DNA from: Sphaerolaimus hirsutus
Taxonomy: Eukaryota; Nematoda; Chromadorea; Monhysterida; Sphaerolaimidae
DNA: 64,000 nt
Assembly: GCA_964036195.1 (NCBI GenBank)
Contig: OZ038453.1
Coordinates: 21,166,352 to 21,230,351 of the forward strand
Direction of reading: 5' to 3'
Shown one piece after another: positions 1,890 to 54,000 of this stretch. Numbering within the stretch: the first letter of the stretch is position 1; each line of letters opens with the position of its first letter. The notes beneath the pieces are model-generated. The model was not told where the DNA came from. It saw only the letters and a program-made list of their open reading frames with translations, and ran no database searches. The translations under genes were made by a program, and so were the position numbers.

Positions 1890-4800
1890 GGCTTCGACAG
1901 GGGTACATTTGGTTGGCCAGCATTCGCAGGCGCGCTAGCAGACCCAACGGCACCAGAATCTGGGGGCATTTTGTTATTTTTATTTTCTGTATTCAAACAC
2001 AAATAAAATATAATTCAAAACAAAAGTAATGCGTGTACTATTTATTTACTTATCACCAATCTACATTGAATATTTATATTATCCAAACAGACACAATAAA
2101 TGGCAACTTCGTGCTAGCTCATATAACCTTTTTTAAGTTTTACTAAATTGAAAATAAGTGAAACCCAGCTCCAATCCTCAAAAAACCGATAAGGCCAATA
2201 AATGGACCCCCCCCCCCCCCCCCAAAAAAAAAAAAACAACAACAACAAAAAACAACAACAACACACAACAAAAAAAACAACAACAACCACACACTCGATG
2301 TATTCGAACTAGCGGCGTCTGCAATGTGTCTTCTGCGCGCTAACGCTGCAGCCATTTCACTTAGCACTGACTGTTGACTGTTTTGAGTAGCCCCTCCGCT
2401 GGTGAGACTGGCTGCGCGGGGGGGGGGGGGTATTTTGTAATTTGAAATTGTTTTTTTTTGGGGGGAGTGAAATATTTGGGGGGTTTCGACTAGGATTTCT
2501 ATCAAGGCGAACTTCACAAAGAACATAAATCCGAACACCAAATGGTTTTAGGGATGGTGAAAAAGTTTTTTTATGACGATCGGGTTTTTTTGAAAAACGT
2601 TGACGTTTTAAAAAAATTCAAAACGCTAGGCATCCCTCCCTAGCCGGTCACGAGTTTTCTGGGTAATCAAAATTTTGCTAGTTACTATATGCAACTATAT
2701 ATATAAAAATTTTACGCGTCTTTTTACTGAGTCGAATCACCATTTTTGCATTTGTCAAAATTAAAGAATTAAAATAATTTTTGCCTTCAAACCGCTCATT
2801 CATAAGAAACACCCCATTCTCACTACCCCCAAACCAACCGCTTCTCTGACTCTGCTGTGTCTGCAAAAGGGGTCCTTTTCGATTGAGCGGGGTTTCATTT
2901 TTAGCGGCGCCTTGCAGCATGGCCACGGGCGGGGGTGGGGGTACAGCTGCGGGGGGTGCTGGCACGCTGCCAGCATCACTTCTCACGGTAGAAGTGGTTT
3001 GGAGTGGGGGTGCTGGCACGCTGCCAGCGCCACCCCCTGCTGTATGGTTACTTTGGGGTGGGGGTGCTGCGGCTACAACTGGAAGGGGTGATGTGATACG
3101 TGATTAGTGATTTGTGTTGCACACAGATGGTGTATGAGATTCAAAACGCATTGGCATTGATTCATGAATGGCGCAAATCCCAAGAACTCAATTATACTTC
3201 GTAGACTTCAGTTTAACTGAAGTAGACTTCAGCTGGTGGACCCACACGCACTAGTTGACATCGCAATTCGGGTCAACTGAATGTCAACTAAATAACATAA
3301 AAAATTAAAAGCATCACCCTTAACAGAAACAATGAAAATTAAGTGTCGCGGTATAAATTTCAACTATGGTCTATCACATAGGAAAGTTGAAATTACAAAA
3401 TATCTAGTTGACATTCAGTTGACACGAATTTCGGTGTAACTAGTGTGAGTTAGCCCTTCTTCATGAGTTCACCACGCAGTTTACAGTTCTAATTCAACCT
3501 TAACACAAGATAACAGGGCTCAAAACTAGTGATGTTAAAGGCACCGGGAAAAATGGCACCGCACAGCACCGGCACCTTTGCCAACGCATGAAAAGGGCAC
3601 CTGGCACCCTGGGGCACCGGCCAGAAAATGGCACCGCACCGCACCGGCACCGGTGCCTTTTGGAAAAAATGGCACCGGCACCGAAGGGCACCGGCGGGTT
3701 GCCGGTGCTAGCACCGAAAGGCACCGCACCGGGCTGGAATTTCTGAAGTAAATATCGGGCAGTTTCTCAGTAGTTTCACCTTTGGAAGTGCATATTTCCA
3801 TGAATTTTCAACCGATTTTGATGGTTGAGCACTTAAAATGATCAGAATGATGTGGCAATCACTTTTATGAAGCAATTACAATGATTACAAATGAAAGATA
3901 AAATATTTTATTTACTACAATGTCCATAGCCACTATTGTCTACTGATCGGAGTCGTTGCTGTACAGAGAATGGAACTATCTCTGTCATAAACTGACAACA
4001 AATTTTGAACAAAAAAGTAAGATAAATATAAAATATAAAAATGATAAAAATTCAACAAAATTTTAAATTCGCTCATCAGATCATGTATCGGGTATAATGA
4101 ATTTCACAGTAGGTATATTTATTTGATGGGGGTTTACAAAATAGGCAAAAACGGTTGGGTAAATATATCGCTGTTTTTTGAAATATGAATAAGCACATAC
4201 TATGGACAAAATTGCACAGCACATGAAGCCTTGGCCGGTGCCTTTCCCGGTGCTTTTTACTTTGCCCTGGTGCTAGCACCTTTGGCACCGGCAAAAAATG
4301 GCACCGCACCGCACCGGCACCGGTGCTATTCTGAAAAAAATGGCACCGGCACCGGCATGGCACCCCTGAAGATTGCAATGGCACCGCACCAGCACCGGTG
4401 CTGGTGCCCTTCGGTGCCCAGCACCGGTGCCCCGGTGCCTTTACATCACTACTCAAAACTCACCGGTGGTACACTGCGATGCATTGGAACTAATAACTGC
4501 GTATTGTTCAGCGGATTGTTGCTGTGCGAAATCGGCGGCGCTCGTGTGCTGTTGACCGAATGAAGATTTCCTGCGAATTAAGAACAGTTGATACTAGGGT
4601 ACAAACGGGATTGACTTTTCGGGATCGGGATTGGGAGTTTTCGGGATCGGGATCGGTAATGAAGACATTTTCTGGTATTTTCTGGCATTTTCGGGATTAT
4701 GGTTTTGGGATTTTGGAGAAAGATCTGGTATTCAGATTTTCTCTGATTTATCACGAAAAAGCGCTAAAACACGTAAAAACATGCCTAAATGCCACAGAAA

Positions 4801-7800
4801 GTAAAGTGGCGTAAAGTTCACGCTGGCGGTTTATATTCACATTTTTAGTGCAAAAAAGGCATTTAACGTATGTAGCGAATTTCCCCGGGATCGGGATTGG
4901 GGTCACGGAATCGGGATTTGAAAAATTTCGGGATCGGGACCGGAATCGGGACGGGACTGCAACATCCCGAATTTTTCGGGACTCGGGATCTGGATCGAAA
5001 TCCCGTGTGAACCCTACTCACTACACTACAACAAAAACGCAGACCAACCTGCCCTGTTCTTGAACCACTGCCGCACAATGTTGCATATGCGGCGCGCTGT
5101 GCACGTGCGACAAGATGCTCGCACTCGCGCCTTCGTTGTCCACTGAGGGCACTGCAATTGGGGAATATTTGTCGCGGGATCGATGTTTGGGTGAATTTAA
5201 AGAGACGTTGGAAACAGCGATAATGTCGGGAGATTTATATTTTAAAATAATAAGAAAATATTTTAAAAGATATTATATTGATTTATATATTTTTCAGAGA
5301 GATTTTAAAATACTATAAATATCGCATTTATATTTCTCTCGTTTTCTCTACGTTTTTTTCAGAAAGATTTTATTTTATTTTTGAGAGATTTTCTGACATT
5401 ATATTTAATTATATTTTCTACAAACACACATTTTTGAAAAGACCCTTCACACGCTCAAACAAACCGTATTCACTCTGCGGTACATTGTGTTGCGGCTGCG
5501 CGAGCACAACTTCATTCTGACCGGTGCGTTTCCGCCGCTGCAGACACTCCAGAGCGGATTGTAACGCCTGCGACGGAAATTAATCTCGAACTTTTCTAAA
5601 AATGCTTTTTTTAAATACCGTATTTGCTTGAATAATTCCCCCTTGAATAACCATGACGAGTGAGGAAAAAATTCCCCACTTCAAGGCATATGATCAGTTT
5701 TTTGACCCAATTTGACGTGAATGACATGTTATTGTGTTAATAAAGTATATTTTGTCAAATCAATTGATGGAAACATGCTTTAAAATTTTGACGAAATAAT
5801 AATTCCCCTTCCCACGACTAGGGTTCAAACGGGATCCCGATCCCGATCCCGGATCCCGTGAAATTCCGGGATTTAGCAGTCCCGATCCCGATCCCGAACC
5901 TTTCAAATCCCGATCCCGAGAAACTCCAAAGTCCGGGATCCCGATCCCGGAAAAATTAGTGGTAATTATCAAACACGAAAAAACGACATTTTGGCATGCA
6001 AAAATGTGAACGCAAACCCCCAGCGTTCATTTTATGCCACGTTTCTGGCATCCAACAGTGTTTTTAGACCTTTATGAACAACTGTGGATGCCAAAACATT
6101 GGCCAAAATCTCTATCCCAAGACCCAAATCCCGATCCCGAAAAAATGCCAATCCCGATCCCGATCCCGATCCCGTGACCCCAATCCCGGCCAATCCCGAT
6201 CCCGATCCCGAAATCTCAAAAAACCAATCCCGATCCCGATCCCGAAAAGTCAATCCCGTTTGAACCCTACCCACGACTCCCGCCTCGAACACCCGCCCCC
6301 CAAAAAAGTCTGACGAAATAAAAATTCCCCGGGGGAATTATTCGAGCAAAAACGGTAGGCAAAATAATTTTACACAAAAATTCGAACCTCGGCAAAACTG
6401 TCCGCGTCTGGATGGGAAGCGAAATTCAAGCCGAAAACTTGTTTCCTATCTCGCCACTGATGGAATGTATTGGTTGCGCGGTTGTATTTCAGTGAGGCGG
6501 ATAGAGTCATGTTCAGGACAACCTGGACAAGTAGAAATGGGGTGTTTTAGTGTCAATTTTGCTTGGCGTCAGGGGTAGGAGGGTTGGGTGGTAACCCCCC
6601 CCCCCAAATCGCCCAGCTTATATATCTATCTATGTCGGGGCAGCCACTCAGCTATAAATCTTTTTCGGAGGCTTTTCCGGATTTTTTTTGGCTACTGTCC
6701 CCTGAACCCCCCCCCAAAAAAAAATCGGTCAGCTATCTAGCCATCTGGAGCGATTTACAAGAAACTCCACCTAATTTTTGATCAATATCCCCAATTTTAT
6801 ATAGTTTTATAGATTTTCAAAATCTTGTTCAAAGTATGTTTAAGCTATTTTGAACCTATTTTAGCAAATGCAAACTAGAATCTTAAAATTATCAGAAATT
6901 GGTTAGCCTAAAGAGCTTGACACTTGATAATTCTCGAACAATCATTTATATTTCAGTTTGCAATCTAGTGATGTATCTGCTGCACCTCTAATTAGCAGCG
7001 CACCAAAATTGACTTCCAAATCTGAAACGACAAAACTATCAACGACAAAAAAAACGCAAAAACACACCCAAGCGCAAACACCAAAAACTCACCTGTTTGT
7101 CGCTAATCGTAGTAGCAACAATGCGACAAACGCCATCGGTTTGATTCTGCAGTAATCTCACTCTGGCGACAGTTTGTTGTTGACCGCTGGCGTCAGGGGT
7201 CATGGCACCGGCGCCGGGGACTTCCTGGGAAATTGGGGGGGGGGGTGGTTGGATTGAAAATCGGCTATTATTGTATTGAAATGCTTATGGGGGGTTGGGG
7301 GTTTGGGCGGTTGTGTGGGGTTGCGGTTTACCCCTTCCACAGATCGCCCAGCTATCTAAATATCACCGAGGCAAATATTTTGGCTAGTTTCATGTTAACC
7401 ACCACCCCCATCACTCACATTTCTAGGTATCCGGAGCTATTTTTGAGAAATCTTGCACCAATTTTTGCTCAAAATCGCTCAAAAAATTTCAGCAGAAATT
7501 TGCACACGAAAAAACCCTGCAGAGAAGGTAACAGCGCAAAAATAGACTCCGCCCAAGGACGCAGCCAGGGGGGGGCGGGGGGGGCGGCCGCCCCCCCTTC
7601 CCGAGCCGGACCAAAGAATGCACTTTCGGAAGACGATTTTGTCGACAGTTTGAAAAATCTTTGCGCGCAAGCGCGCATTTTCCCTTCACAACATATACTT
7701 TTGGCTGACCGGTCTCCGCGGCCTCAAAGCCAGTGAAAATGGACTGAATTCGTGTCCATGTCGTTCTATATGCCTGTAAAATACAGACGTATATTGCTGT

Positions 7801-8361: not shown

Positions 8362-8877
8362 TAGGGTTCAGACGGGATCGACTTTGTGGGATCGGGACTT
8401 TGAATTTTCTTGATTGGGATCGGGGTAGATTTTGCTTTCGGGACTTGCGGGATCCTAATTTGGGCCACAGTTGCGGTATTGACAGTTTTTATCTAACTTT
8501 ATCACAAAAAAGGTCTCAACACAGACCTGAATGCCAGAAAAGTGGTATAAAAGCACACAGGACGCTTCGGTTGACATTTCTCAGTGCTAAGTTACTTTTT
8601 CATTTCCACTAATTTTTGGGCCCACACACGCTAGTTGACATCGACACCAAATGTCAACTGGTGCCGATCCCGATTCAAAGCTTGTTAACGAGCCGACGAA
8701 CGACGTTCAAACCCAAGCTTTGAATTGGGATCGGAACCAGTTGACATTTGGTGTCGATGTCAACTAGCGTGTATGGGGCCTTTTCGGGATCGGGGTTACG
8801 GGCTCAATTTTCGGAATCGGGACAGTTGTATCGCGATTCGGAAATAATCCGGAATCGGAATACCGTTTGAACCCGGT
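8362..8877. mobile_element. hAT-type MITE (ATCCCG family), old, with nested hairpin MITE
   Basis: Left end TAGGGTTCAGACGGGATCG, right end CCGTTTGAACCC. The hexamer arrays are eroded. The hairpin at 8618-8780 is inserted inside. Confidence 0.7.
8618..8780. mobile_element. Hairpin MITE, GTTGACATCGACACC subfamily
   Basis: Nearly perfect foldback: arms run CACACGCTAGTTGACATCG, ACACCAAATGTCAACTG, then CCGATCCC and CAAAGCTTG, around a short loop containing GACGAGCC. Same structure at 33811-33972 and 49091-49266. Confidence 0.85.
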
Positions 8878-12109: not shown

Positions 12110-15100
12110 TCAATTGACCTGCATCAACCCCTGCATCTGCGAGTGTCCAACATGTTGTTGTACACTCTGCAGCATGGCATTGGCCTCGGCCACGCCGGCG
12201 CTCACATGGGAATCGTCCACGTTCAGGTGCATTTGGCCCGGGTCCAAAGAATTGGATTGGTGGCCCATCGATGTTGATGGGGTGTGGTGATTGTGTTGGA
12301 TCGAGCCCATGAGGGTTTCTGGGGCCACGTGGTCCGGTTCGGTTAGCTGGGGGGGGATTGTGGAAGGTTGAGTGAATGAGGGGGTATTGAGATGGATTTT
12401 TGACGACTTTGAAAAAATCCTATGTTTATTTTTTTAATAGATTTTTCAAATCAATGCGTTTGAATTTTTTTCAGCACTAATGATAAGAATCTAATTACGT
12501 ATCATACCAGTAGGGATGGAAAAAACGTTTGTTAAAGACCCCATCTAAAAACGACGTTTTTAAACACTTGAAAAATCCCTGCTACAAAGTTAAAAATACG
12601 TTGCGCGCGAGCGACGTTGCGAAAAAGGGCACCAGGGAAGTTGAAACCAGGCCAATTCCAGCTTTTGATCACGCGTTTGATTCATCACGCTCAAAAACAC
12701 AAAAAAATTCCTTAAAAAAAAGTTTAAAAAAAGTTCCAACTTACTATCAAGTGTCCATTGGCAACGAGTGCGGCCACTTGTTTGTGGTAACGCTCGTGCT
12801 GGCCGAAATCCTCCGGATTTTTAAATTGCCGCATGCAGACCTGCGTAAATTTGAGCGGTGTTTTATTGTTCTGACTTGAAAATGGAATTTGAAAATGAAA
12901 ACCGCACAGCGAATAAGTTAAAATGAATATCCATTGGCTAGTTTTGTAACCAGTAAAATTTAATGTAAAATTCCCGGTAAAATTTTATATTGACTGGTCA
13001 CTTTATTTATTCACAGCTCATTTATATTAGCTAATATTTCAGACATTCAACACATTACATGACGTTTTGCGAGATGCCACACACACAAATTAATTCATAA
13101 CACGATCATTAACATCCACAGAGCTCATTTCGCACATGCAAAAAGCTCCCACAAACTCAAAAGCCGGTAAAAATAACAAAACACCGCAAAAAAACATCAC
13201 AAACCTCACAAAACAAATCCCTCTGATCCCCCTGACTATCATGAGCGATAGCCAAATGTTCGATCGCCTCCACCCGACTCATAAACATGGCCTTACAATC
13301 GGGGCAGGCGTATTGTTCAAACGGTAAAGCCCGCAAAACATCCATACATTCCGATAGGGTGTACTGGGATTCCGCTGCGGATTGAATTAGTGCGCACGTG
13401 TGTTGCAGCTGAAAAATTGGGGGGGGGGGGTATTTGAGGGGTGGTGTTTTATTTGAGAGAAACTGGGATTACTTTTTGAAGATAAAACGTGTTAGTTGTT
13501 TAAAAACCGTTATTACAAAAATATTCGTTCCCATATATAGGGTTCAAACGGGATTGACTTTTCGGGATCGGGATCGGGATTCACGTTTTGAGATTTCGGG
13601 ATCGGGATCGGGATTGGGGTTTCGGGATTGGGATCGGGATTGGTTTTTTGAGATTTCGGGATCGGGATTGGCCGGAATTGGGGTCACGGGATCGGGATCG
13701 GGATTGGCATTTTTCCGGGATCGGGATTGGGTTCTAGGGATAGAGATTTTGGCCATTTTTCTGGCATTCACATTTGTTCAAAAAGGTCTCAAAACACTGT
13801 TGGATGCCAGAAAAGTGGCATAAAATTGACACTGGGGCTTTGCATCCACTTTTTTGCATGCAAAAATGTCATTATTTCACTTTTTATAATTTCCACTAAT
13901 GGGATTTGAAAGTTTTCGGGATCGGGATCGGGATTGGTCGTTTTGAGATTTCGGGATCGGGATCGGGATTGGGGTTTCGGGATCGGGATCGGGACTGCTA
14001 AATCCCGGAATTTCACGGGATCCGGGATCGGGATCGGGATCCCGTTTGAACCCTACCCATATATGGTTATGAGTCAGCTTATTTTGGCAGAAAATTTTCA
14101 TTAAAAAAAACAGTTTTGATGTTTGCGTTTTTTAGAAATTTTTTAACCGTTGTTAAATTTTTTTATAAAAACACTGGTCAAAGCCTAGCGCCAATACTAT
14201 CAAACAATCAACAACCCCCCCCCCCCAACCAACCTTATCATTAACACCATGGCACTTCATCAAATCGTTATTTCTAATTTTCTTGACCCACTCCGCACTG
14301 CTATTACCCAGGCCCATGCGCCTATTTCTAGAACGGGAACTGGGCAGTGCCTTTGTACTTGAACTTTGGCCCTGGCCTTTTATAAGGGGGGTGTTGTCGT
14401 TGACCACTGCGTCTGTGGATGAACGTCTGAAGGGTTTGGGGGGGGGGGTATTTGGATTTTGATATTGTGCCTAGGGTTGGAAAAAAACGTTTTTTTAACT
14501 CGATGTTTTTTTATTAAAAAAAACGTTTTTTTTAAAAAGCTCCCAGATATGACCTAGTGTCAACATATATAGGTATATAAGACACTGGCAATACTCTGTG
14601 ATGTTAAATATGACCATATAATGGCTGTGGAGCCATGGGATAGCATTATAAGTGGTGATTTATGTCAAAAATATCCATTTTTCGTCGACATATCGTTCGT
14701 ATATCGCCTTATAGTCGAATGTTCGTGACTTCAGGTAAAGTTTGGCACGGAATGGTGATCAAACAAGGTTATAAAAGGAGGTTGTTACTTTGGGAGTGAA
14801 GTTACACACTGTGGAGGTACATGGAAGCACATTCCCTCAATATTATATATTACAGCAACATATGTCGGCTTATTCACCCATGGTAGCACATAGAAATGGA
14901 TGTTTTGATACTAAAAATGCAACAAAACCAATGAAAACAACCACCAATGTCAATTTGTGTGTGAAATTGCGCGCTTGCGCGCAAAAATTTTGCAAAATAC
15001 CTAGTGCTTAGTACTAAAAATTTCGGCCGATGATTTTTTTTAAAAAAAACATTTCGGACGTCATGTTGTTGTTTTTTAAAAAACGTTTTTTTTTTTTTTT

Positions 15101-18100
15101 AAACATCGGCCAACCCTAATTGTGCCTGCGCACACCTAGTTTTCACACGAAATTTGGAAAACTCACAAATCAGCTTAGAACACATTTGAGTTTTCTACAA
15201 TGAGGTGGCCGTCAACTACAGTTGACGGAGATTAAAAATGACTCATTGTGGAAAACTCAAACACGTTCAAAGCTCATCTATGAGTTTTCGAATTTCGTAT
15301 GAAAACTAGTGTGCGCAGGGCCATTGTAACGCCGATGTCCCCATTAGGGTTGGAAAAAAAAACGTTTTTTTTAACTCGATGTTTTTTTTAAAAGCTCCCA
15401 GATATGACCTAGTGTCAACATATATAGGTATATCAGACACTGGCAATACTCTGTGATGTTAAATATGACCATATAATGGCTGTGGAGCCATGGGATAGCA
15501 TTATAAGTGGTGATTTGTGTCAAAAATATCCATTTTTCGTCGACATATCGTTCGTATATCGCCTTATAGTCGAATGTTCGTGACTTCAGGTAAAGTTTGG
15601 CACGGAATGGTGATCAAACAAGGTTATAAAAGGAGGTTGTTACTTTGGGAGTGAAGTTACACACTGTGGAGGTACATGGAAGCACATTACCTCAATATTA
15701 TATATTACAGCAACATATGTCGGCTTATTCACCCATGGTAGCACATAGAAATGGATGTTTTGATACTAAAAATGCAACAAAACCAATGAAAACAACCACC
15801 AATGTCAATTTGTGTGTGAAATTGCGCGCTTGCGCGCAAAAATTTTGCAAAATACCTAGTGCTTAGTACTAAAAATTTTGGCCGATGTTTTTTTTTTTTA
15901 AACATTTCGGACGTCATGTTTAAAAAAAAAAAAAAACGTTTAAAAAAAAACATCGGCCAACCCTAGTCCCCATCTACTTTGGCCCCTGGATCAATTTTAC
16001 GTTTCAGTTTGCAGTTCAGTTGAATTGCAGGGGGGATTTGTTAAAGAATTATGTCTGCTAACTACTGTATTTCTTCGAAACACCGCCCTCCCCCTACTTA
16101 ACACCCACCCCCTTGAAATACCCCCAGATCATTTGGAGCTGAGGAAAAATAAACCCCCCTCGAAATACCCCCCCCCCCCCCGACTAGAATAAGGTTCATC
16201 ATGTATGCAATGTACATGATGAATTAATTACTGCCAATATGCATCAAAGCTACACATGAAATCAAACCTGACAAAAGGCCGCCATATTTGATCGAGCTCT
16301 TCCTTGCTGCTCACATGCTGCCTGAGGTGCTTTTTCAAATTTCCCTGCAAGTAAAAAAGAGAAATTGCAATTGAGTTCTCTTCGAAGGCATGGATCATAG
16401 AAAACGAGGGAAAAAAAATAATGACAAAAACGTCTGATAATGGCAGAAATACTTTTGATAAATTTAAAAATGTATTAAATGTTATAAATAAATTTAAAAT
16501 AAATATTTTTTAAATTGGCTGTTAATCAATCAATGTCTTATTAATAATTATTAATCATTGTCTTATAATGATCCCACTGAAACTTTCGGATTTATTGAAA
16601 CTGTACCCATCATGACAGAATCGCTCAATCGCTCAGCAATGTGGGTAATTTAGTGGTGTGCTAAAAAAATTATCTTAATATATCATATATCTGACCGGCC
16701 TCTGGGATAGATATAGCTGACCAACTCGAAGAGGGGGGTAAACCACCCCCCCCCCCCCCATTGGAGACCACTACCAACAATACACCCCCAACAGAGCTAC
16801 CCCCCAACCTTTAATCTGCACGCCTTGCCACAAAACGGACACTGATGCGACACATTTCCAGCCGCGTGAAGCGATTTGTGCTCGAATAAATTCGACTTGA
16901 ATCGAAAAGCCTTGCCGCATACGTCGCAAGCGAATGGTTTTTCATCGGTGTGAATTACTGCGTGCTGTTGGAGGCCTGGAAGCGAAATTGGGAATTTTTG
17001 GGCATTTTACTAGTGATAAGGGATTTGATGGTGACTGGCCCACACAAACTAGTTGACATCGCAATTTCGTGTCAACTGAATGTCAACTATGTAACAACAA
17101 AAGTTTTTCGAGCATCACGCTTAACAGAAACAATTAAAATTGAGTCACGAATGTAACGTTAGCTTTGTTCTATCACATAGGACAGTCGAAATCACTTGCC
17201 GGTAATTAACAAAAATTTAGTTGAATTTAGTTTACACGAATTTTGGTGTTAATTAGTGTGTGTGTGTGTGTGTGTGGGTCCTTTATGGTGAATGTATAAG
17301 ATATAGATATTGTAACAAAATAAATGCTTAGTGCAGGTATATTTGGTATTCAGAAAATAAATTCGAGCTTACGCATTTTTTACGGACACAGGAACGCAAT
17401 TATTAGAATGAACAATCCATGACATGGTTTTGGCAAACTTCCAACAGTGAATTTAGTCAAGAGTAGAATTTGGGAAAAATCAACCTAAAGTCATTCAACT
17501 TAGAACTTATAAACCGTGAAATCATTAGGACTGTGTAAAAACTGTGATTTCAAGTGTACAAAATATAAAAATACTAAATTGTTAAAAATTACCTTTTGGC
17601 GTGGCGAAAACCTTGAAGCAAACATCACATTGTGTCTTTGATGTGGGCACAAATGCGGATAAACCTTGTACCTGCGATGAAAGTAGATGTTTATCTATTA
17701 TTTTTTCGTGTGATATAATCAATTTTTGGAAAATGAGAAAAAATAATTCATGTTTTTTTCTTGATTGACGAAATTGATTTTGATTTTTTTATGTTGGAGA
17801 AACACTTGTGGAGAAAAAATTGATGAAATAGACGAAAATTCCTACCGGTTATGATGAATGAACCTTTTTCAATACATTATGACCGACCAGACAAAAATTC
17901 TCACGAAACTTCTTAAATTTAAATTAAATTTCGGTGACCACAAATAGGGTTCAAACGGGATCCCGATCCCGATCCCGGATCCCGTGAAATTCCGGGATTT
18001 ACCAGTCCCGATCCCGATCCCGATCCCGAAACCCCAATCCCGATCCCGATCCCGATCCCGAAATCTCAAAAATACCAATCCCGATCCCGATCCCGATCCC

Positions 18101-18866
18101 GAAAGTTTTCAAATCCCGATCCCGATCCCGAGAAACTCCCAAGTCCGGGATCCCGATCCCGGAAAAATTAGTGGAAATTATAAAAAGTGAAATAATGACG
18201 CTTTTGCATGCAAAAAAGTGGATGCAAACCCCCAGCGTCAATTTTATGCCACTTTTCTGGCATCCAACAGTGTTTTGAGACCTTTATGATCAACTGTGAA
18301 TGCCAGAAAAATGGCCAAAATATCTATCCCTAGAACCCAATCCCGATCCCGGAAAAATGCCTATCCCAATCCCGATCCCGATCCCGTGACCCCAATCCCG
18401 GCCAATCCCGATCCCGATCCCGATCCCGAAATCTCAAAAAACCAATCCCGATCCCGATCCCGATCCCGAAACCCCAATCCCGATCCCGATCCCGATCCCG
18501 AAATCTCAAAAAGTGAATCCCGATCCCGATCCCGATCCCGAAAAGTCAATCCCGTTTGAACCCTAACCACAAATGACCAAGACAATTTCGACCATAATCC
18601 AAAACGATCAAAAACGCTCAAAAACAGAAACATCGATCAAACTTGAAGCGAAAACTCCATCCAAATCGAAAAACAATCAAAAATCGCCACTATTTATCCA
18701 CAAAAACGATCAAAAGTCCTCAAAACACCAATCACTACCATTTTCAAGTCAAAATTACAGTAAAAAATACGGTATTCTACCGTGCGACAAAATCATTTCT
18801 AACCTGCCCTTCGGTTTCAAACTGGGTCCTATGTAGGTCCTCGTCCAAAATCGAAGATTCCGCCAT
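12110..18866 (-). CDS. C2H2 zinc-finger protein, five fingers
   Basis: Eight phase-compatible exons (complement): 18804-18866, 17593-17671, 16809-16975, 16268-16344, 14234-14426, 13205-13408, 12745-12840, 12110-12346, giving about 371 residues. The start is MAESSILDEDLHRTQ; the stop is at 12110-12112. Finger 1 has C36, C39, H52, H56 and is split between exons 2 and 3. Finger 2 follows a TDEKPF linker. Finger 3 is CPFCGKACRLK joined to GNLKKHLRQH across an intron. A basic Ser-rich spacer and a helical segment lead to finger 4 (CPDC, HLAIAH) and finger 5 (FCEVC joined to a QHERYH end). Each intron-split finger is rebuilt with correct C-x2-C-x12-H-x3/4-H spacing, which supports the model. The tail is rich in Gln, His and Met. 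Probably a nuclear DNA-binding regulator; no orthologue recognised. Introns hold two near-identical hAT MITEs and two hexamer-array MITEs. Confidence 0.82.
13538..14055. mobile_element. hAT-type MITE with ATCCCG hexamer arrays
   Basis: TAGGGTTCAAACGGGATTGA to CCCGTTTGAACCCTA with exact TSD CCCATATA (13530-13537, 14056-14063). Both arms carry CGGGAT arrays. The core is closely similar to copies at 5819 and 17945. In a zinc-finger gene intron. Confidence 0.92.
14472..15118. mobile_element. hAT-type MITE, TAGGGTTGG family, copy 1
   Basis: TAGGGTTGGAAAAAAACG to GGCCAACCCTA with exact TSD ATTGTGCC (14464-14471, 15119-15126). Poly-A/T-rich arms with AAAACGTTTT. The core is almost identical to the neighbour at 15345-15965. 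Confidence 0.92.
15127..15320. mobile_element. Hairpin MITE with CTAGTTTTCAC ends
   Basis: Inverted repeat: TGCGCACACCTAGTTTTCA at the left and GAAAACTAGTGTGCGCA at the right, with internal AAACTCA complementarity. It lies between the two hAT copies. Confidence 0.75.
15345..15965. mobile_element. hAT-type MITE, TAGGGTTGG family, copy 2
   Basis: Exact TSD GTCCCCAT (15337-15344, 15966-15973), different from copy 1, so an independent insertion rather than a local duplication. Over the core only a few bases differ from copy 1. Confidence 0.92.
17037..17283. mobile_element. CACACACTAGTTGAC-family MITE with TG microsatellite
   Basis: CACACAAACTAGTTGACATCG at the left; the right end has AATTAGTGTGTG expanded into about nine TG units (17257-17276). 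Internal TATCACATAGGA signature. Confidence 0.75.
17945..18565. mobile_element. hAT-type MITE with the longest ATCCCG arrays
   Basis: Exact TSD ACCACAAA (17937-17944, 18566-18573). Termini TAGGGTTCAAACGGGATCCC and CCCGTTTGAACCCTA. ATCCCG occurs in blocks of three to four separated by AAATCTCAAAAA spacers. In zinc-finger intron 1. Confidence 0.93.
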
Positions 18867-25264: not shown

Positions 25265-26270
25265 TTCCACACTAGTTGACATCAAACTTCTTGTCAACTA
25301 AATTCAACTTAATTTTAGTTAAATGTGACACAGCACAGTATAATTTTTAATTGTGTGACACAGCACAGTATAATTTTCGATCGTTGGTGACTAGGGTTCA
25401 AACGATATGAATTTTCGATATCGATATTCGATATTCGATATTTTTTTCTGAAACTCGATATTCGATATCGATACGATATGGAACCTCGATATCGATATTC
25501 GATATTAAAAACTGGTCGATATTCGATATTCGATATTTTCGATATTCGATATTGCGATTTGCTTTTGGTATAGCAAGGCATATTTCAAGTGACATATTGT
25601 ATTTTAATGTGGTTGCACGCATGGTTAATCATCTCTTTAGTTAAATGTGAATGGTACAAGTGATTTTAACAAGGTTTACATCACTCAAAAGTAGAACATG
25701 TAGAACAAAACATGATAAATCAATGTGTAGCAGACAAATAACAATTTGTAGATATTACAGTTCATACTGATAACCTGATTGCTTAAAGGCATGTTGCAAA
25801 AAATAGAATATCAGCATTTTCTGGCTTCAAATTTAGCACTCCAACAAAAATGACATTATAAGTACAGTACTTTTACTCATCTAATACCATTCTCAGATCA
25901 GATCAAGCACATCAGATCAATCATAAATATCTCAAAATGAAAATGATAACTTTTTTTAGGGACACAATATAGGTTCGATATATCGAAAAAATGGTCGATA
26001 TTCGATATCGATATTCGATATTTTTTCAAATTTTCGATATCGATATTCGATATTCGATATTTTTTCAAAATTTTCGATATCGATATTCGATATTAAAAAA
26101 TGGTCGATATCCGATATTCGATATTCGATACGATATATCGTTTGAACCCTATTGGTGACACTTTAATTTCATTTTTCTGTTAAGTGTGATGCTTTTGATT
26201 TTTTTGTGCTTTTTAGTTGACGTTCAGTTGACTCGAATTTGCGATGTCAACTACACACACTGTGGGCCAT
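25265..26270. mobile_element. TAGTTGAC-family MITE split by a hAT insertion
   Basis: Left part 25265-25391 and right part 26152-26270 together make one family member. The hAT element at 25392-26151 sits in the middle. Confidence 0.8.
25392..26151. mobile_element. hAT-type MITE with TCGATA arrays, copy 1
   Basis: TAGGGTTCAAACGATATG to CGTTTGAACCCTA with exact TSD TTGGTGAC (25384-25391, 26152-26159). Arms are GATATTC/GATATCGATA arrays. The core near 25560-25970 is almost identical to that at 42840-43250. Confidence 0.93.
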
Positions 26271-31630: not shown

Positions 31631-34600
31631 ATGGATTTGGAATCGCGGAAAGAGGTAATTTTCGAAATTTTTAGCTTTTGACTTTTTTGGTGTGGGGTGT
31701 ATGTTTGCCATAACTTCTGGTGCCACTCCCAGACCCTGTAAAGTGTAAGAGACTTTGAAAAATGTCACGTGTCATGTAAAAATTCCTGTAAAATGTCCGG
31801 TGTTATGTAAAATACCCTGTTAAGTGTCATGTGTATACAAATCTTATGCCAAATGGTAAGCTTTGGATACGTGACACTTTACAGGGTCTTATACATGACA
31901 TTTTACAGGGTTTTTCACATGACATTTTACAGGGTTTTTCACATGACAATTTACAGGGTCTTTTACAAGGTCTGGGAGTTTCCCCAGGATTGCTTTGCGG
32001 CCCTATGTAAAAAAGCCATTGCAAGTGCCCAAGGCCCAACACTAGTTGACATCGCAAATAAATGTCAACTCCACAACATTTTATAAAGTATTTGTCTAAC
32101 TTGGCACGAATTTTGATGTCAACTAGTGTGTGGGCCCGTAAGTCATGTATGTAAACTGTTGTAAAAATGTCACATGATATGTACTTTTACATGACTTTTC
32201 GCACTTTGCATGGCATTTTACATGGTCCGGGACTGGCACCAGATTTGTCAAGTAAGTACTTTTTAAAGAACACTAGTCACCTTTTACAGGATTTAAATAA
32301 ATCGATCAATTGTTTTTTCAATTTGTTAAAATACAAAACTCAAAAAAATAAACTCAGGAAATTGAGCTGGACGTAGCTGAACTGCGAGGGCTGCTAGTTT
32401 CCGTGAAACGCGACCGCACCAGAAACGCACTCAATAGTGCCTATCAAATCGCTAATAGGGAACTGCAAAAGGTTTTTTGGGGATTTTTTCAGGGGTTTTA
32501 AGGTTTGTATTTACTGTATTCAGGCGTAGAGTGGAGGAAATTTTCCTTTGAAACTCCGCATATCCCTATTCCGAAATGCCCCAGTGCATTTATTCAATAG
32601 TTGACGACACAACGCAAGTTGACAATTTTCGGAACTGATAAATCTGTTTAAAACACAGTCGAGTTCACCACAATTTATAATACATAGCAGCACTTGACAG
32701 ACTCCTCATTCAAGTTTAAAGTTCAATTTCAAGTTTAAAGTGTTTGCAACAGATTTATCGGCCTTGCAAATTTCGGTTGTCAACCAGTGTGTGCAGGACC
32801 ATTGAAAAAAATCTGTATTTATAAAGTGTAAAATGCTGTATCCGTGCTGGTTGGTGGATGGCCGGGTCTCAAGGAAATTTGCAAAAAGGTTCCCCATAAG
32901 TGCGCAGTGTCATATTTCTTACAATTTGAATAGAAATAAAAACGAGAGTGGGGCCTATAAACGATCTTCGTCTGAACCCGCAAATATTATGTTTCACCGA
33001 TGGGTTAGGATGTTCTTGCACGAATCCTCGTTTGATAGATAGCTGAATACCAGCATAGCTGGTAAAAATAGCTGAAAATAGCTTTTTTGCGGAGTTGGAG
33101 GCAGCGCCTCCGCTCCTAAATATGTGATGGGGTTTGGTTGTTTTGTTCGTTTTGTTGCATTGGCGCCATAACTGAATTCGTAACTGAATTGATGTCAACT
33201 GAATTCGTGTCAACTAAAATTGAGTGAATTATGTGATTTCAACTTAGCATAAATACTTTAACTCATGACTAGTGATGTAAAAAGCGCCATGGCGCTTTTC
33301 TGAACCCAGTGCCAAGCGCCAATGGCGCCAGACAAAAATAGCGCCAGAACCGCCATGGCGCTTTTTGCTTTGGCGCTTTTACATCACTAGTCATGACACT
33401 GTATTTTCATTGTTTCTGTTAAGTGTGATGCTTTTTAGAAACTTTTTGTGTTATTTAGTTGACATTGAGTTCACACGAATTTGCGATGTCAACTAGCGTG
33501 TGTGGACCCATTCTGACGTAGCACATGACCCTGCCAGATGACAATACCGCACCCTGGAAATGTCATGCGAACTGTACCCTGTAAAATGTCATAAAAGTGT
33601 CAAACGTAATGTAAAATGTCGTGCAATGTATATAACAAAAGAGATGTAACATCTCTGAAATGTCAAACATTTCAAACACCATTTTACATGACTTTTGACA
33701 CTTTGCAGTGGAAGGAATCTCCAGGGGCCAGTCCGCAAGTGGCGAATTAAAGAGCTAAACATACCATTTCTTATTTTTCATTACTTACTTATCCAGAAAT
33801 GTCACCAATGGGCCCACACACACTAGTTGACATTGACACCAAATGTCAACTGGTTCTGTTCCCAATTCAAAGCTTGCGTCTGAATGTCGTTTATCGGCTC
33901 GTCAGCAAGCTTTGAATTGGGATCAGCACCAGGTGACATTTGGCGTCGATGTCAACTAGCGTGCGGACCAATTAACCAACCAGTTACGATCACATAGGAG
34001 CGGAGGCGCTGCCTCCAACTCCGCAAAAAAGCTATTTTCAGCTATTTTTACCAGCTATGCTGGTATTCAGCTATCTATCAAAGAAGGCTACGTGTATAGA
34101 CATCCTCACCCATTGTTGAAACATGATATTTGCGGGTTCAGACAAAGATCCTTAATACTTCACTGTGAGTGCTCACGGGGGCCGCTCACGCAAATGTTCA
34201 TATGACCTTCAATTTCAGACAAACCTCTTAATTACCCGAACACATTAGGGACCCGGAATTAGACGTCTGATTCTAAAAGTCGACAGTTCCACAACATGGG
34301 ATTTTGAGTAGATCGCATTTTACGTTTCATTTTCAATTCACGGCCCTTGATATGTGTCCAATTATGCTGGCTCATGCCTACCGTTAAGTTCCAAATGTTG
34401 ATAATAAACTGTCAAGTTTTCAGCCCCTGCTCTCAACGTTTATGGAAACCTAAAGGTATAAATGTACATCTGCCTTATGGACAATTTATGGACTTTCGAC
34501 TTTTAGAAATCGGTGCCCATATAGGGATGGCCAAAAAACGTTTTTTTAACGACCGTTTTTTAAATTAAAAACGGGTTTTTTAAAAGCTCCCAGATATGGT

Positions 34601-42400: not shown

Positions 42401-45400
42401 TCTCGTCCCAAATTGCCGCCACCCCCCGCGTCCATACCCGCCGATGCCCGACAAATCGAAATCGAGCCTAGAGACGCTAATTTTGGCGACTTGCCAGCTA
42501 ATATTAATGCGGCTGGCGCAGTGCCAAATTACGCGCACGCGATGATTCAACAGAATTGGGTTGGGCAGGATCAAAGTCTACTCAACGGCTGGGGTCATCG
42601 ATTGGATTTTGGGGATGATATAAGGATTGTTAATGGTTGGGTTGACGCTTTTTTGATGCGTGAACGAAAATGTTGTACAGAGAGCTAGGGTTCAAACGAT
42701 ATGACTTCTCGATATCGATATTCGATATTCGATATTTTTTTCTGAAACTCGATATTCGATATCGATACGATATGGAACCTCGATATCGATATTCGATATT
42801 AAAAAATGGTCGATATTCGATATTTTCGATATTCGATATTGCGATTTGCTTTTGGTATAGCAAGGCATATTTCAAGTGACATATTGTATTTTCATGTGGT
42901 TGCACGCATGGTTAATCATCTCTTTAGTTGAATGTGAATGGTACAAGTGATTTTAACAAGGTTTACATCACTCAAAAGTAGAACATGTAGAAAAAAAACA
43001 TGATGAATCAATGTGTATCAGACAAATAACAAGTGGTAGATATTACAGTTCATACTGATAACCTGATTGCTAAGGGCATGTTGCAAAAAATAGAATATCA
43101 GCATTTTCTGGCTTCAAATTTAGCACTCCAACAAAAACGACATTATAAGTACTGTACTTTTACTCATCTAATACAATTCTCAGATCAGATCAAGCACATC
43201 AGATCAATCATAAAAATCTCAAAATGAAAATGATAACTTTTTTAGGGACACAATATAGGTTCGATATATCGAAAAAATGGTCGATATTCGATATCGATAT
43301 TCGATATTTTTTCAAAATTTTCGATATCGATATTCGATATTAAAAAATGGTCGATATCCGATATTCGATATTCGATACGATATATCGTTTGAACCCTACA
43401 GAGAGCCCAATACTCGAACATTTTAGTGACTTTTTAAGCGCGCTAGGTTGAATTTTAGCAACGTTTTAAACTTAGTTGATGGGAATTAGCGAACACCCTA
43501 AATGACTGGCACTTGAATCATGATTCTACGTGATTTCGACTCCCGAAAACAAACAAAAAACAATCCCGAAAGGTCAATCCCGTTCAAAATACAGGGCAGT
43601 CGCACAAAATTTTCAACACCCTCAATATTTCCTCATTTCCACTCTCCCAGGCGGCCTACCTCAAACCAACATCCCTGGCGCCACGGTGGCGCCAAACACA
43701 GCGCCTGCACCAGTCCCAGCGCCAACCGCAGCGCCATTAGCCGCCAGCAGCACTCCATCCACCAGGAGCACGCCTGCATCCGGCGAAAATGGCGCCAGCG
43801 CCAGCGCGGCGCCAAAACGGACAGCGCCAGATGGCGCCAACGCCAATGCACTTCATCAGCGCCAGAGGACAAACCGGACTAACGCCAACAGGGGCGCCAA
43901 CGGGCGGAGCCAAGCGCCAGTCGCCATGGCGCCAGTAGAACCGGTCACGCCCAGGGCTTTATTGGAAACTCCCTCTAGTTTGGACCAGATAAAAGGGCAG
44001 GTTAATCCGACTGATTTGGACAGCGTGCCGATGAAAAACGCCAGATATTTTGTGATAAAGAGCTATTCAGAGGACGATGTTCACAGGAGTATTAAGTATG
44101 GTATTTGGTGCAGTACTGAGCATGGAAATAGGCGGTTGAATGAGGCTTTCAAGTGGGTTTTTGTATTTATCTTGTGATTAGGGTTTAAACGGGATCCCGA
44201 ATCCCGATAATATCCGGGATTTAGCGATTCCGACCCGAAAGCCCCGATGCCGATACCTAAATCTGAAAATCCATGTTCCCGATCCCGAATATTTTGAAAT
44301 CCCGATACTGGAAAAATTAGTGGGAATGATAAAATGTGACAAAATAACTTTTTGCGGTGATATATGTTGACGGGAACGTCCAGTGTGCTTTTATGCCAAT
44401 TCCCTGGCCTTCAAGTGTGTTTTTATACTTTTTTTGTGGAAAATTAGAGCAAAAACCCTCGATACCAGAACGTTTGTCAAAATCCCGAGACCCTAATCCC
44501 GATCCCGAAAACACATCAAAACCAACCCCAGCCCAATCACGACCGAAAACTCATAAAGAAACAATCCGGATCCCGCGACCTCAATCCCGATCCCGATAAT
44601 TCAGATGACCAATCCCGATCAGGGTTGGCAAGAACTCTGGAAAAAAATAAAAATGAATAAAATTAAAATAAAATACAATTTTAATAATAAAGAATTTTGC
44701 TAAAACCAACCCTGGCCGCTAAACTAAAAAAAAATTTAATTAAAATAAAGTGAAAATTGAAGAATAAATTAAAATAAGATGAAATGAAATAAAATTAAAA
44801 TTAAATATTTTTTTTATACACTTTTTCTTAAAAGAATTTTACTAAAACCAACCCTGATCAGCCTTTTTGGCAACCCCCAAACAATACCCTCCCCCAGGCA
44901 ACAAACAACTTTGAGCGCTCCAGTTTACTTATTTTTCTCCGTCAACTCATCCGGTTATTTTTGCGGCATGGCTCAAATGACAAGCGAAGTAGACTGCACA
45001 AAACAGGCTACAGTGTGGGGCAGTTCCAAATGGAAGGGCATTTTTCATGTTGGTTGCTTTTTGCGAGTTGCTTTTTGGTTGTTTTTTTATACTTATTTTT
45101 GGTTGTAGTGCTTTGGTGTTGGAAAAATGCAAGATGGCGAAAAGTTTACGAGATGCTGTCTGACAGTGTCAGGATTTCGGAGAAAATCTACAATTTCCAG
45201 TCAAATAGTGTCTAGAGGGACACTCTCCCTTTTAGACGACATTTCATAAGATGTGTGATGGGCCCTAGATCACAATTCTTCGAAAGCCAAAGTTCACAAA
45301 GTATGGGACATTTTTTGCCCGTTAATTGATTTTCCGTATCCCCTTGAATTACCCCCTTCAAAAATTTGCTGTCAAAATAATAAACCCCGTTGGGTTATTT

Positions 45401-51000: not shown

Positions 51001-54000
51001 GAGTTTTTGTAGTTTTCTGTTGAACAGTTTTTTTGCGATTGTGCCATTTGATGTGTTGGTGAAGGATTTTTTGTGCTACTCACTATAGTACGCAAATCGA
51101 GTAAACGCTGTACAAAGGATTCTACCGTATTCTGTTGAATAAGTCACGTGAAAAATTATGCGCAGAGACGAGAGAAAGCACAATTTCTTTGTAAAATGGT
51201 AGATTTCATTGTAAAACCCGTGTTCAGTGGACCATGCCATCAATCAACCAACCACAATTGTAATATTTGAACAAAAATATATTCAACCACGAAACTTTCA
51301 CACAGGCGTAAAACTGGACACCGATTCCCGAACGCTCATTACAATTCGAAATCTGCGCATCCGTGAAGACACCGCAAAATATTTGCTAAATTTGGATCCT
51401 AACTCCGCCTACTATGATCCGAAATCACGTTCGATGCGTGAAAATCCATATTTGGGCACTGGAAAAGTCGACAAGGAAAAGATTTATGATGGGGATAATT
51501 TTGTCCGCTATACGGGGGAGGCTGTGGTAGGTTTTGTGAGGGTAATTTTGGGTAGAAAACGTGGGTCAAATATTTTTGAATAACCTATCAGTCCACACTT
51601 TGGCATACTCAAACGTGAAACGTTCAAACGTGAACCCGGTTTCTATTTTTAATATCAAAATGTCAGACCCAAATAGGGTACAAACGGGATTGACTTTTCG
51701 CGATCGGGATTGGATTTCGTATTTTCGCGATCGGGATTCGGATTTTGAATTTTCGCGATCGTGATCGGGTTTGTGTTTTCGGGTTTTCGGAATCGGAATT
51801 TTGGCAAAGGTTCTGGTATTGAGAGTTTTTCTTAAAAAATTATCCGAAAAAGGTCTAAAAACACTTGAACGACAGAGAATTTCGAATTTTCGTGATCGGG
51901 ATTGGGTTCATGGAATCGGGATAGCAAGTTGAAAATTTTGGGTATCGGGGATCGCAAGTTAAAAATTTTGGGGATCGGTACCAGTATTGGGATTTTCAGA
52001 TTTCGGGTCTGGATCAGGACTGCTGAATCACGGAAAATTCGGAATCGGAATCCTGTTTGAACCCTGCATCAAATCAATCCCATTATCCACCCCCAAGATT
52101 CAGAACACCCTAAATATTAAATTTTTTCAATTTTTCACAAAAAACACCCTTCCAGGACGTCAGCAAAGCGCAATTATTCGCGTGGGAAGCGAAACGCAAA
52201 GGGGTCGATGTACACGCAGTTGCCGAACCGACCAAATTGCAAACTTTGAAAAGGGAATATGGCACGAAAAAAGTCGGGTTTGAAGATGAGAAAAAGAGGG
52301 CGGTATTGGAGAAGTATGGAGGGGAAGAATATTTTAATGTGAGTGCCGCTTTTTGTTACCTTTGGTCCACATGCGCTAGTTGACATCAAAATTCGTGTCA
52401 ACTGAATGTCAACTAGGAAACAAAAAAATTATGGCATCACAATTAACAGAAATGACGAAATTAGGTGGCACGATATAAAATTGATACGGTATAAAACTCT
52501 ATCACAATTAATTTACCAAAAACAATAATTTACCTAAATTGAGTTGACACGAATTTTGATGGCAGCTAGTTTATGCGGGCCCTTTGTTACGCGATATGTC
52601 AATATTTTAACATTTCTTCAACTTTTCAGAATCCAGCCAAGGACTTGCAGCTTGCACAAACGGAAACTTATGTCGAATACAGTAGGCGGGGCGAAGTTAT
52701 CAAAGGTGTCGAAAAACCGATAGTTATGTCCCGATATCCGGAGGATGTTTATAATAACAACCACACTTCCGTGTGGGGTGAGTGACCTGTTATTTTTGTT
52801 TTACATTGAATTCATCTGTATATACACTGTTTTGTCACATTTATTAACAGTTTGCATATATGTAAAGGTCTATTCTTTACAATGAAACGTCACGAAAATT
52901 TGTGACAAAATAATAACCCCCGACCATTCCAATAAGCCCCCCTTCGAATTACCCTCCTCAAAATTTGCTGGCAAAATAGTAAAAACCCCGCTGGGGGTAT
53001 TTCGAGCCAATACGGTAGATCGAAAAAACGTCCCGGCATGATAAAAGTCCGCATCTAGCTCGAAATATTCACATTTGATTTATAGTTTCCTTCCAAAAAC
53101 AATAAAAACAACTCATTTCCAGGCAGCTACTGGACTGCCGGGGAATGGGGCTACAATTGCTGCAAATCAACTGTCAAAAACAGTTATTGTCTAGGCTCCG
53201 CCCACAATGAGAACAATTCTGAGGCTGCGAGTAGTGCGGGTCCATTGGCTCCCGTTCCTGAAAGTGTGGAAAAATCTAATGAGATTGGTGATAAGAATGA
53301 TAAGGATGATAGTGTGGAGAAAAGTGTGGATGGTGATAAGAAGAAAAAGGAAAAGAAAGGTTTGTTGTCCTGGGCCCAATTCCAATTGCTAGTTGTCCGG
53401 AGAGTGATGGCAAATTTTTCAACATATTTATCCTGGTAAAGTGTTGTGTAAAAATAAAGCGTTCATTTTGATGTAAAGTTTGTACTGTCCATTTTGAAAG
53501 TGCACATTTTAAAGATCCAAATTCGAAAATGTTTAAATTCAATTGGTAGATAGAAATTATAGTGATAGCACGGCTGGCACGGGCCAGGCCTCCTACGCAC
53601 AAATGCCTGGTACGCACAAACGCCCGGTACGCACAAAATTGTGCCAGCCACGCACATCTGCCCGGTACTTACATGGCTGATGATCTTTGCGTACCGGACA
53701 GATGGTCACTAATGTTATTGCACAGCTTTTTTCACTTCACTGATATCTGAAAATCACTTGAAAATGTGTCAAGTGAAAAAAACGGTCAAAAATGGCCATT
53801 ATCCACCATTTTTTCACTTGACACTTTTTCAAGTGATGTTCAAATATATGTGAAGTGACAAAAAGTTGACTAATGTCATTACACAACTTTTTTTCACTTC
53901 ACTCACAAGTGTGAAGTGAAAAACACGCTCAAAATGTAATGTAATGTTATTTCGTATCGGGCAGATGTGCGTGGCGGGCATAATTTTGTGCGTACCGGGC

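Follow-up and report, generated by a model that had tools for sequence, protein, structure and literature searches.

The window analysed here is a 64,000-nucleotide stretch of the genome of the nematode Sphaerolaimus hirsutus (G000:C4:21166352-21230351), and at 17945..18565 it contains a 621-bp non-autonomous transposable element whose arms are built from many copies of one hexamer. This element and four others in the window end in exact TAGGGTTCAAACG at both termini and are flanked by exact 8-bp target site duplications (TSDs), as a preliminary description of this DNA had reported. Three of the five carry arrays of CGGGAT (equivalently ATCCCG): the 17945 element (TSD ACCACAAA), a 451-bp element at 5819..6269 (TSD CCCACGAC) and a 518-bp element at 13538..14055 (TSD CCCATATA). 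The other two, of 760 bp at 25392..26151 (TSD TTGGTGAC) and 713 bp at 42686..43398 (TSD CAGAGAGC), carry CGATAT (TCGATA), and this division by unit also stands as first described. Across the window, TAGGGTTCAAACG matches 21 times with at most two mismatches, 10 of them exact, where chance predicts 1.7 at that tolerance. Tandem unit dimers number 61 for CGGGAT and 9 for CGATAT, and none appeared in 50 first-order Markov simulations.

Each element has two distinct ends, which we call A and B. The 17945 element has exact 13-bp ends, with its A end on the left, where the palindrome CGGGATCCCG (17956..17965, plus strand) is formed by a first sense unit overlapping the first antisense unit. Its B end, on the right (18525..18565, minus strand), reads inward TAGGGTTCAAA-CGGGAT-TGACTTTT-CGGGAT and onward into the array. 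Counted over the whole element, 43 units point one way and 3 the other. The A end also lies left in the 5819 element, and the B end lies left in the elements at 13538, 25392 and 42686.

These elements belong to a large population that falls into classes by array unit. In the genome searched (348.5 Mb, 762 contigs) we counted 15,514 exact TAGGGTTCAAACG termini (7,752 + 7,762), compared with 5 + 3 for a control pattern read backwards. Going inward from the end, the first copy of the unit already falls within the terminal repeat: the six bases after TAGGGTTCAAA are CGGGAT at 8,581 ends, CGATAT at 3,241 and CGGGAC at 2,549, leaving 1,143 others, five of which read CGGAAA. CGGGAC is thus a third unit behind this terminus. 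The preliminary description had called the hexamers unrelated; once they are aligned to the terminus, the three units differ at only 1-3 of 6 positions. A sister family combines TAGGGTGTCAA ends with CGGAAA arrays, and its end TAGGGTGTCAAC occurs exactly 1,878 + 1,855 times (control 12 + 12).

We analysed 58 elements out of several thousand, a non-random sample made up of elements from the window, from sites that terminus searches listed and from sites where a transposase relic occurs. The sample admitted elements with at most one mismatch in the first 11 bases and at most one in the TSD, which left out, among others, L016 (for its TSD), L044 and L073 (for their ends) and three degraded relatives in the window. 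TSDs are exact in 53 elements and have one mismatch in 5, and since the elements were selected on this feature the count tells us that such 8-bp duplications are common but not what share of elements has them. Most of the sample (47/58) measures 139-1,134 bp, and the others reach 2,655 bp. Short, non-coding and present in high copy, with terminal inverted repeats (TIRs) and a TSD, these are miniature inverted-repeat transposable elements (MITEs); some carry a transposase relic at the 3' side and so look like internal-deletion derivatives.

Terminus and array agree closely. Among the 42 sampled elements with TAGGGTTCAAA ends, the inner terminal hexamer equals the element's own array unit at 78 of 84 ends. 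Four of the six remaining ends read a one-base variant of the unit; the other two, in CGGGAT elements, read CGGGAC and CGGAAA, the latter having been picked by a search for hybrids. That search addressed true combinations of TAGGGTTCAAA with CGGAAA: four of the five candidate ends were fetched, and the sole one to pass the element finder (L105) proved to be a CGGGAT element with an altered inner terminus. The 100 termini that come first on contig C1 include 31 neighbouring pairs, of which 28 were of the same class (shuffled mean 10.8, maximum 21) and three paired one class with an unclassed end; no pair mixed two classes. Three stretches of interior similarity link elements of different classes: 240 bp (72%) common to a CGGGAC and a CGATAT element, possibly through a shared later insertion; 77 bp (75%) common to a CGGGAC and a CGGGAT element; and 42 bp (81%), near the relic, common to CGATAT and CGGAAA elements. 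One CGGGAT element of 1,357 bp (L083) has repeated halves, with 70 forward units and a 128-codon frame present nearly twice, and may be a tandem or a composite.

The arrays were first described as inverted between the two ends, and direct counting overturns this. Units keep a single direction over both arms in all 43 testable elements (15/15 CGGGAT, 12/12 CGGGAC, 16/16 CGGAAA), and the inverted part of CGGGAT elements is the terminal repeat only. Summed over whole elements, units in the main and opposite directions number 444/33 for CGGGAT, 299/23 for CGGGAC and 461/0 for CGGAAA. For CGATAT the unit gives no clue to direction, since rotating its reverse complement restores the same sequence.

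The two ends follow a fixed and polar plan. In the A end, position 12 carries a sense unit, and the antisense unit next to it completes a palindrome; the palindrome stands at position 12 as CGGGATCCCG in 12/15 CGGGAT elements, as CGATATATCG in 13/15 CGATAT elements and as CGGGACCGCGGTCCCG in 7/12 CGGGAC elements. At the B end the sense unit at position 12 (absent from the CGGAAA family) is followed by a spacer and then by the sense array. An A(C/G)TTTT spacer marks the B end in 15/15 CGGGAT, 13/15 CGATAT, 11/12 CGGGAC and 11/16 CGGAAA elements and is found at 0/58 A ends. The first exact unit of the B-end array mostly lies at position 26 (CGGGAT, CGGAAA), 25 (CGATAT) or 31 (CGGGAC). Because palindrome, spacer and start positions recur from class to class, it is the layout that is kept and the letters that change.

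Relics of transposase genes inside the elements point to hAT transposons. A profile search of the genome with PF05699 gave 28 matches, and the relics are C-terminal hAT dimerisation parts located inside elements, which together with the 8-bp TSDs bears out the hAT origin proposed at the outset. We assigned relics to lineages according to which of three query peptides (A, B or C, each of them a PF05699 match) they most resembled; the lineage A peptide matches Hermes, a hAT transposon of the house fly (E 2.7e-6). By tblastn, relics lie inside 10/15 CGATAT, 13/16 CGGAAA and 1/12 CGGGAC elements. All 23 relic matches in the 58 elements (22 elements by E-value list) read from the A end to the B end. 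Faint remnants of a lineage A C-terminus persist in both CGATAT elements of the window (E 0.005 and 0.013). Both are the last part of a degraded hAT C-terminus recognised by relic profile A1 on the minus strand: one, hand-placed and weak (frame E 0.0047), at 25758..25834, and one with an internal stop, likewise weak (frame E 0.013, stretch 0.024), at 43046..43120.

Transposase lineage goes with array unit. From the PF05699 and related match lists we assembled 67 relic loci, dropping one overlapping locus; some lineage assignments among them are weak, scoring below 50 bits or nearly equally for two lineages. At the 45 loci that bear arrays, lineage and unit agree in 42 (A with CGATAT in 23, B with CGGAAA in 19), compared with a mean of 22.2 and a maximum of 34 under permutation. 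A fourth relic lineage, D, was recognised by relic profile in 2/12 CGGGAC elements. Its genome search listed 150 scored matches of 258 candidates, and the 12 that we fetched, mostly those with the longest open frames, all lie amid CGGGAC arrays, 10 of them inside an exact-TSD element. In CGGGAC elements at L119-L127 the hexamer array is in frame with the relic, giving RS/PG-rich open frames of up to 189 codons.

Arrays travel with their elements. The 17945 element has a copy at G000:C1:1437551-1438171 that is 617/621 identical and gap-free with a different TSD (GACGCCGC), so its array was carried through transposition. The preliminary description had named arrays arising after insertion as grounds for abandoning its view, and this copy rules out post-insertion slippage as the source of the array. 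Its other such ground, arrays of variable length unrelated to any transposase clade, holds for length and fails for clade, with which the unit goes. Forward units number 18 to 43 in CGGGAT elements of 421-692 bp, and alignment gaps are stepwise, which shows that slippage or unequal exchange alters array length: 6, 6, 1, 6, 6, 6 and 12 between the 17945 element and L092, and 6, 1, 2, 6, 6, 12 and 6 between it and L112. Larger gaps also occur against the elements at 5819 (30, 50, 78) and 13538 (49, along with 5 and 1), and between CGATAT copies the differences are of 7, 8 and 39 bases and of single bases. In the four families, unit runs are 1-4 long with two runs of 5 in total, allowing one extra T or A per unit in CGATAT and CGGAAA. 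This ceiling on run length, together with the spacers between clusters, is unlike free microsatellite growth.

The closest published parallel is Hermes. The Hermes left end is located upstream of its gene. In that end, STR1 and STR2 form a quasi-palindrome in bases 11-27 and STR2-7 are antisense, while the right end carries STR1-5 in sense orientation with the first repeat within the TIR; multiple BED domains are described on the left end and none on the right (PMC10368747). The left end of Tol2 similarly has a perfect palindrome directly after its TIR (PMC10368747). Hermes and the elements described here thus share polar ends (a palindromic first pair plus antisense repeats on one side, sense repeats on the opposite side), a repeat lying within a terminal repeat, and a C-terminus with which the lineage A relic aligns. 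The palindrome and antisense layout make our A end the counterpart of the Hermes left end, and the direction of the relics agrees; the Hermes-type layout is found here, except for the palindrome in the CGGAAA family (0/16). The Hermes repeats are AAGT/AAGC motifs (17 and 14 occurrences) and not tandem hexamers, its right end is bound by no BED domain, and no full transposase was seen in the elements described here.

Other transposons share single features. The hexamers of maize Ac are scattered and do not form dense one-way arrays, and Ac termini differ from these. In Ac/Ds, hexamer copies inside both ends bind transposase, only three copies being stated as required in the Ac 5' end, and the CGGAAA array of the TAGGGTGTCAA family, read as AAACGG, is the Ac hexamer by rotation (PMC3260210). 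The mosquito hAT element Herves repeats a short motif, CGATTCAT, at both ends, four direct repeats of which suffice for transposase binding; motif and variants occur only several times per end there, which does not make a dense array (PMC3143072). Muta1 and other Mutator-like elements (MULEs) of Aedes have 8-9 bp TSDs, short tandem repeats by their ends and many non-autonomous copies, but belong to the Mutator superfamily and have 9-15 bp units in long TIRs (PMC5225508), and are therefore presumably mirrored, not one-directional. Galileo, of the P superfamily, has conserved ends, and the TIRs of some copies are lengthened by tandem repeats, three such copies being mentioned (PMC4168063). Two further candidates were set aside as relatives: coral CMITEs, described as piggyBac-like with whole elements in tandem (PMC2872659), and microsatellite-associated MITEs of pineapple, described as inserting into microsatellites (PMC8449440). 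Among the literature matches listed, read as titles and abstract starts with few subscription journals covered, we found no hAT transposon with lineage-specific tandem hexamer arrays, which is weak evidence of absence. We know of no set of sister hAT families with swapped units.

Combining these observations, we propose, with good confidence, that the elements are non-autonomous derivatives of several closely related hAT transposons and that their arms are lineage-specific arrays of subterminal repeats, putative binding sites for the BED finger. Subterminal repeats are a known property of hAT elements. The same hexamer forms the inner six bases of the TAGGGTTCAAA terminal repeat and some 20-40 array copies, which indicates that the divergence of the lineages altered terminus and array in concert. 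In the mechanism we envisage, the outer 11 bp would be a cleavage site common to related catalytic domains. On the side upstream of the transposase remnant (the A end), the palindrome, which antisense units follow, would serve as the first cooperative pair; on the B end, a short spacer leads into sense units. Many BED domains from the transposase multimer of a single lineage would be drawn cooperatively to the arrays, and each array would act as an address selecting its lineage's transposase, with the BED finger presumably diverging along with the unit. That the arrays bind transposase is suggested by their anatomy, and that the unit selects among transposases by the concordance of three lineages. 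The suggestion in the preliminary description that the arrays may be amplified transposase-binding sites differing by lineage is thereby supported, given the agreement at 78/84 ends and at 42/45 and 12/12 loci.

Several observations weigh against this interpretation. Searches found neither a BED finger nor a catalytic core nor an autonomous element together with the arrays: the preliminary description had suggested a search for autonomous partners, and none emerged through BED, where 0 of the 7 matches read (of 15 in the genome) lay inside an element, or through PF14372, the sole core model tried, which gave two sub-threshold matches. The largest class, CGGGAT, to which the 17945 element belongs, yielded relics in 0/15 elements, and it probably belongs to hAT as judged by the common 13-bp end, the TSD and the end layout only. 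CGATAT arrays also stand behind another outer end, TAGGGTTGGGA (L044, TSD AAAGTGAC; L073, TSD AATTAGTG), showing that a given unit is not tied to one outer end and that the two can vary apart. The CGGAAA family shows the A-end palindrome in none of 16 elements and has a terminal repeat without the unit. At 22 of the 67 relic loci no class reaches 15 units within 700 bp (8 loci of lineage A, 3 of B and 11 assigned to C, 4 of these 11 scoring under 60 bits), and 3/45 are discordant (A/CGGAAA 2, A/CGGGAT 1); by coordinates the foreign array at each of these (L064, L074, L079) sits in a neighbouring element. Since no BED domain is reported on the Hermes right end, the sense arrays of the B end may function differently from the arrays of the A end. 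Finally, because lineage and unit are inherited jointly, the loci, numerous as they are, count as three independent lineages. Their match is one of inheritance by descent, which fits co-divergence and does not show an arms race.

Candidates for the missing genes were weighed individually. A CGGGAT transposase at L064 was rejected because the relic sits outside the CGGGAT element, and an autonomous copy at L115 because it has one lone terminus near-match and no arrays. The longest CGATAT elements (L087 and L088, 2.2 and 2.7 kb) contain no convincing transposase frame. One BED match, at C1:7488648-7488779, ends 202 bp before an exact-TSD CGATAT element (7488981-7489751). It belongs to a cluster of seven such matches (G000:C1:7466186-7488779; L131, L132) with a short CGGGAC pair lacking a TSD nearby, and the CGATAT element looks like an insertion beside a host gene cluster.

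Could the arrays instead have grown neutrally, like microsatellites, through replication slippage or unequal exchange, hitchhiking in successful elements and binding nothing? The variation in unit number and the gaps of 6 and 12 that mainly separate CGGGAT copies are what such growth would leave. Runs that stop at four units, apart from the two of five, are not, and neither are a first unit fixed at position 12 behind TAGGGTTCAAA nor an array start, polarity, spacer and palindrome that recur across classes. With terminal repeats that agree with the unit and arrays that move intact between two sites, we consider this reading very unlikely. A single transposase might alternatively mobilise all TAGGGTTCAAA classes through their common outer 13 bp, the unit being irrelevant to its choice. 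Identical outer 13 bp in three classes and the lack of CGGGAT relics are as this would have it, but lineages A and D each occur in their own unit class behind TAGGGTTCAAA, and published accounts report hAT subterminal repeats to be necessary for excision or binding (PMC3260210, PMC3143072, PMC10368747); we think it unlikely.

Another alternative, raised in the preliminary description, is an arms race, in which arrays would have multiplied because non-autonomous copies compete for or titrate a shared transposase, whose finger would shift to escape with the unit following. The 15,514 termini, the many sites per element compared with the three stated as required in the Ac 5' end (PMC3260210), the presence of at least four units in one genome and the failure to detect an autonomous copy all fit this. 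Simple lineage divergence accounts for the results equally well, and we regard the arms race as doubtful. Somewhat more credible, and still tentative, is a modular address code, in which one 11-bp cleavage end is kept while the hexamer is reassigned in concert over the inner repeat, the palindrome and 20-40 sites, giving at least three orthogonal transposon-transposase pairs, with competition among copies driving amplification and switching.

How hAT transposases stay specific among related families in one genome is, to our knowledge, poorly understood. The elements described here form a natural series in thousands of copies, in which outer end and layout are constant, the spacer is similar and the hexamers differ along with matching transposase lineages. 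BED-finger specificity, the function of the palindromic pair and competition among non-autonomous copies thereby become directly testable.

The window holds further relatives of these elements. Three degraded members of the CGGGAT class lack a clear TSD: one at 4595..5016 with one mismatch per end, one at 51674..52066 with mixed CGCGAT and CGGGAT units, and one at 8362..8876 with an inverted-repeat insert. Elsewhere in the genome, L041:1909-2397 and L076 are of TAGGGTGTCAA type with many AAATGG units beside AAACGG, a possible intermediate or decayed form. An element at L062:550-2045 has TAGGGCTC ends, an exact TSD and (CTCGA)n pentamer arms, with a CGATAT element nested inside it.

Separate groups with other ends are also present. 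The TAGTGATGT-ended group of the preliminary description is real, and its member at 3527..4451, with GGCACC units, belongs to a separate hAT-like group and has the exact TSD CTCAAAAC; the 120-bp member at 33270..33389, with GCGCC units, matches in only 7/8 TSD positions. Elements with TAGTGATGTAAA and GCGCC units lie at L017:38-1314, L037:206-422 and window positions 33270-33389, and exact TAGTGATGTAAA occurs 3,931 + 3,884 times in the genome (control 117 + 109). In the L017 element one end bears the palindrome AGCGCCATGGCGCT and the opposite end AGACTTTT, an arrangement that resembles A and B ends in the main families. Elements at 14472-15118, 15345-15965, 34522-35409 and 45839-46494 make up another group: their ends read TAGGGTTGG/TAGGGATGG, their 8-bp TSDs are exact and their arms are rich in T; the arm motif was ACGTTTTTTT in one and GTCTTTTTTAA in the other of two that were read, perhaps a further change of unit. 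An Rfam scan of the window gave no match at gathering thresholds. Adjoining the 42686 element, an open frame at 43524-44177 is likely part of a host gene, and a segment of it resembles the start of a YTH domain.

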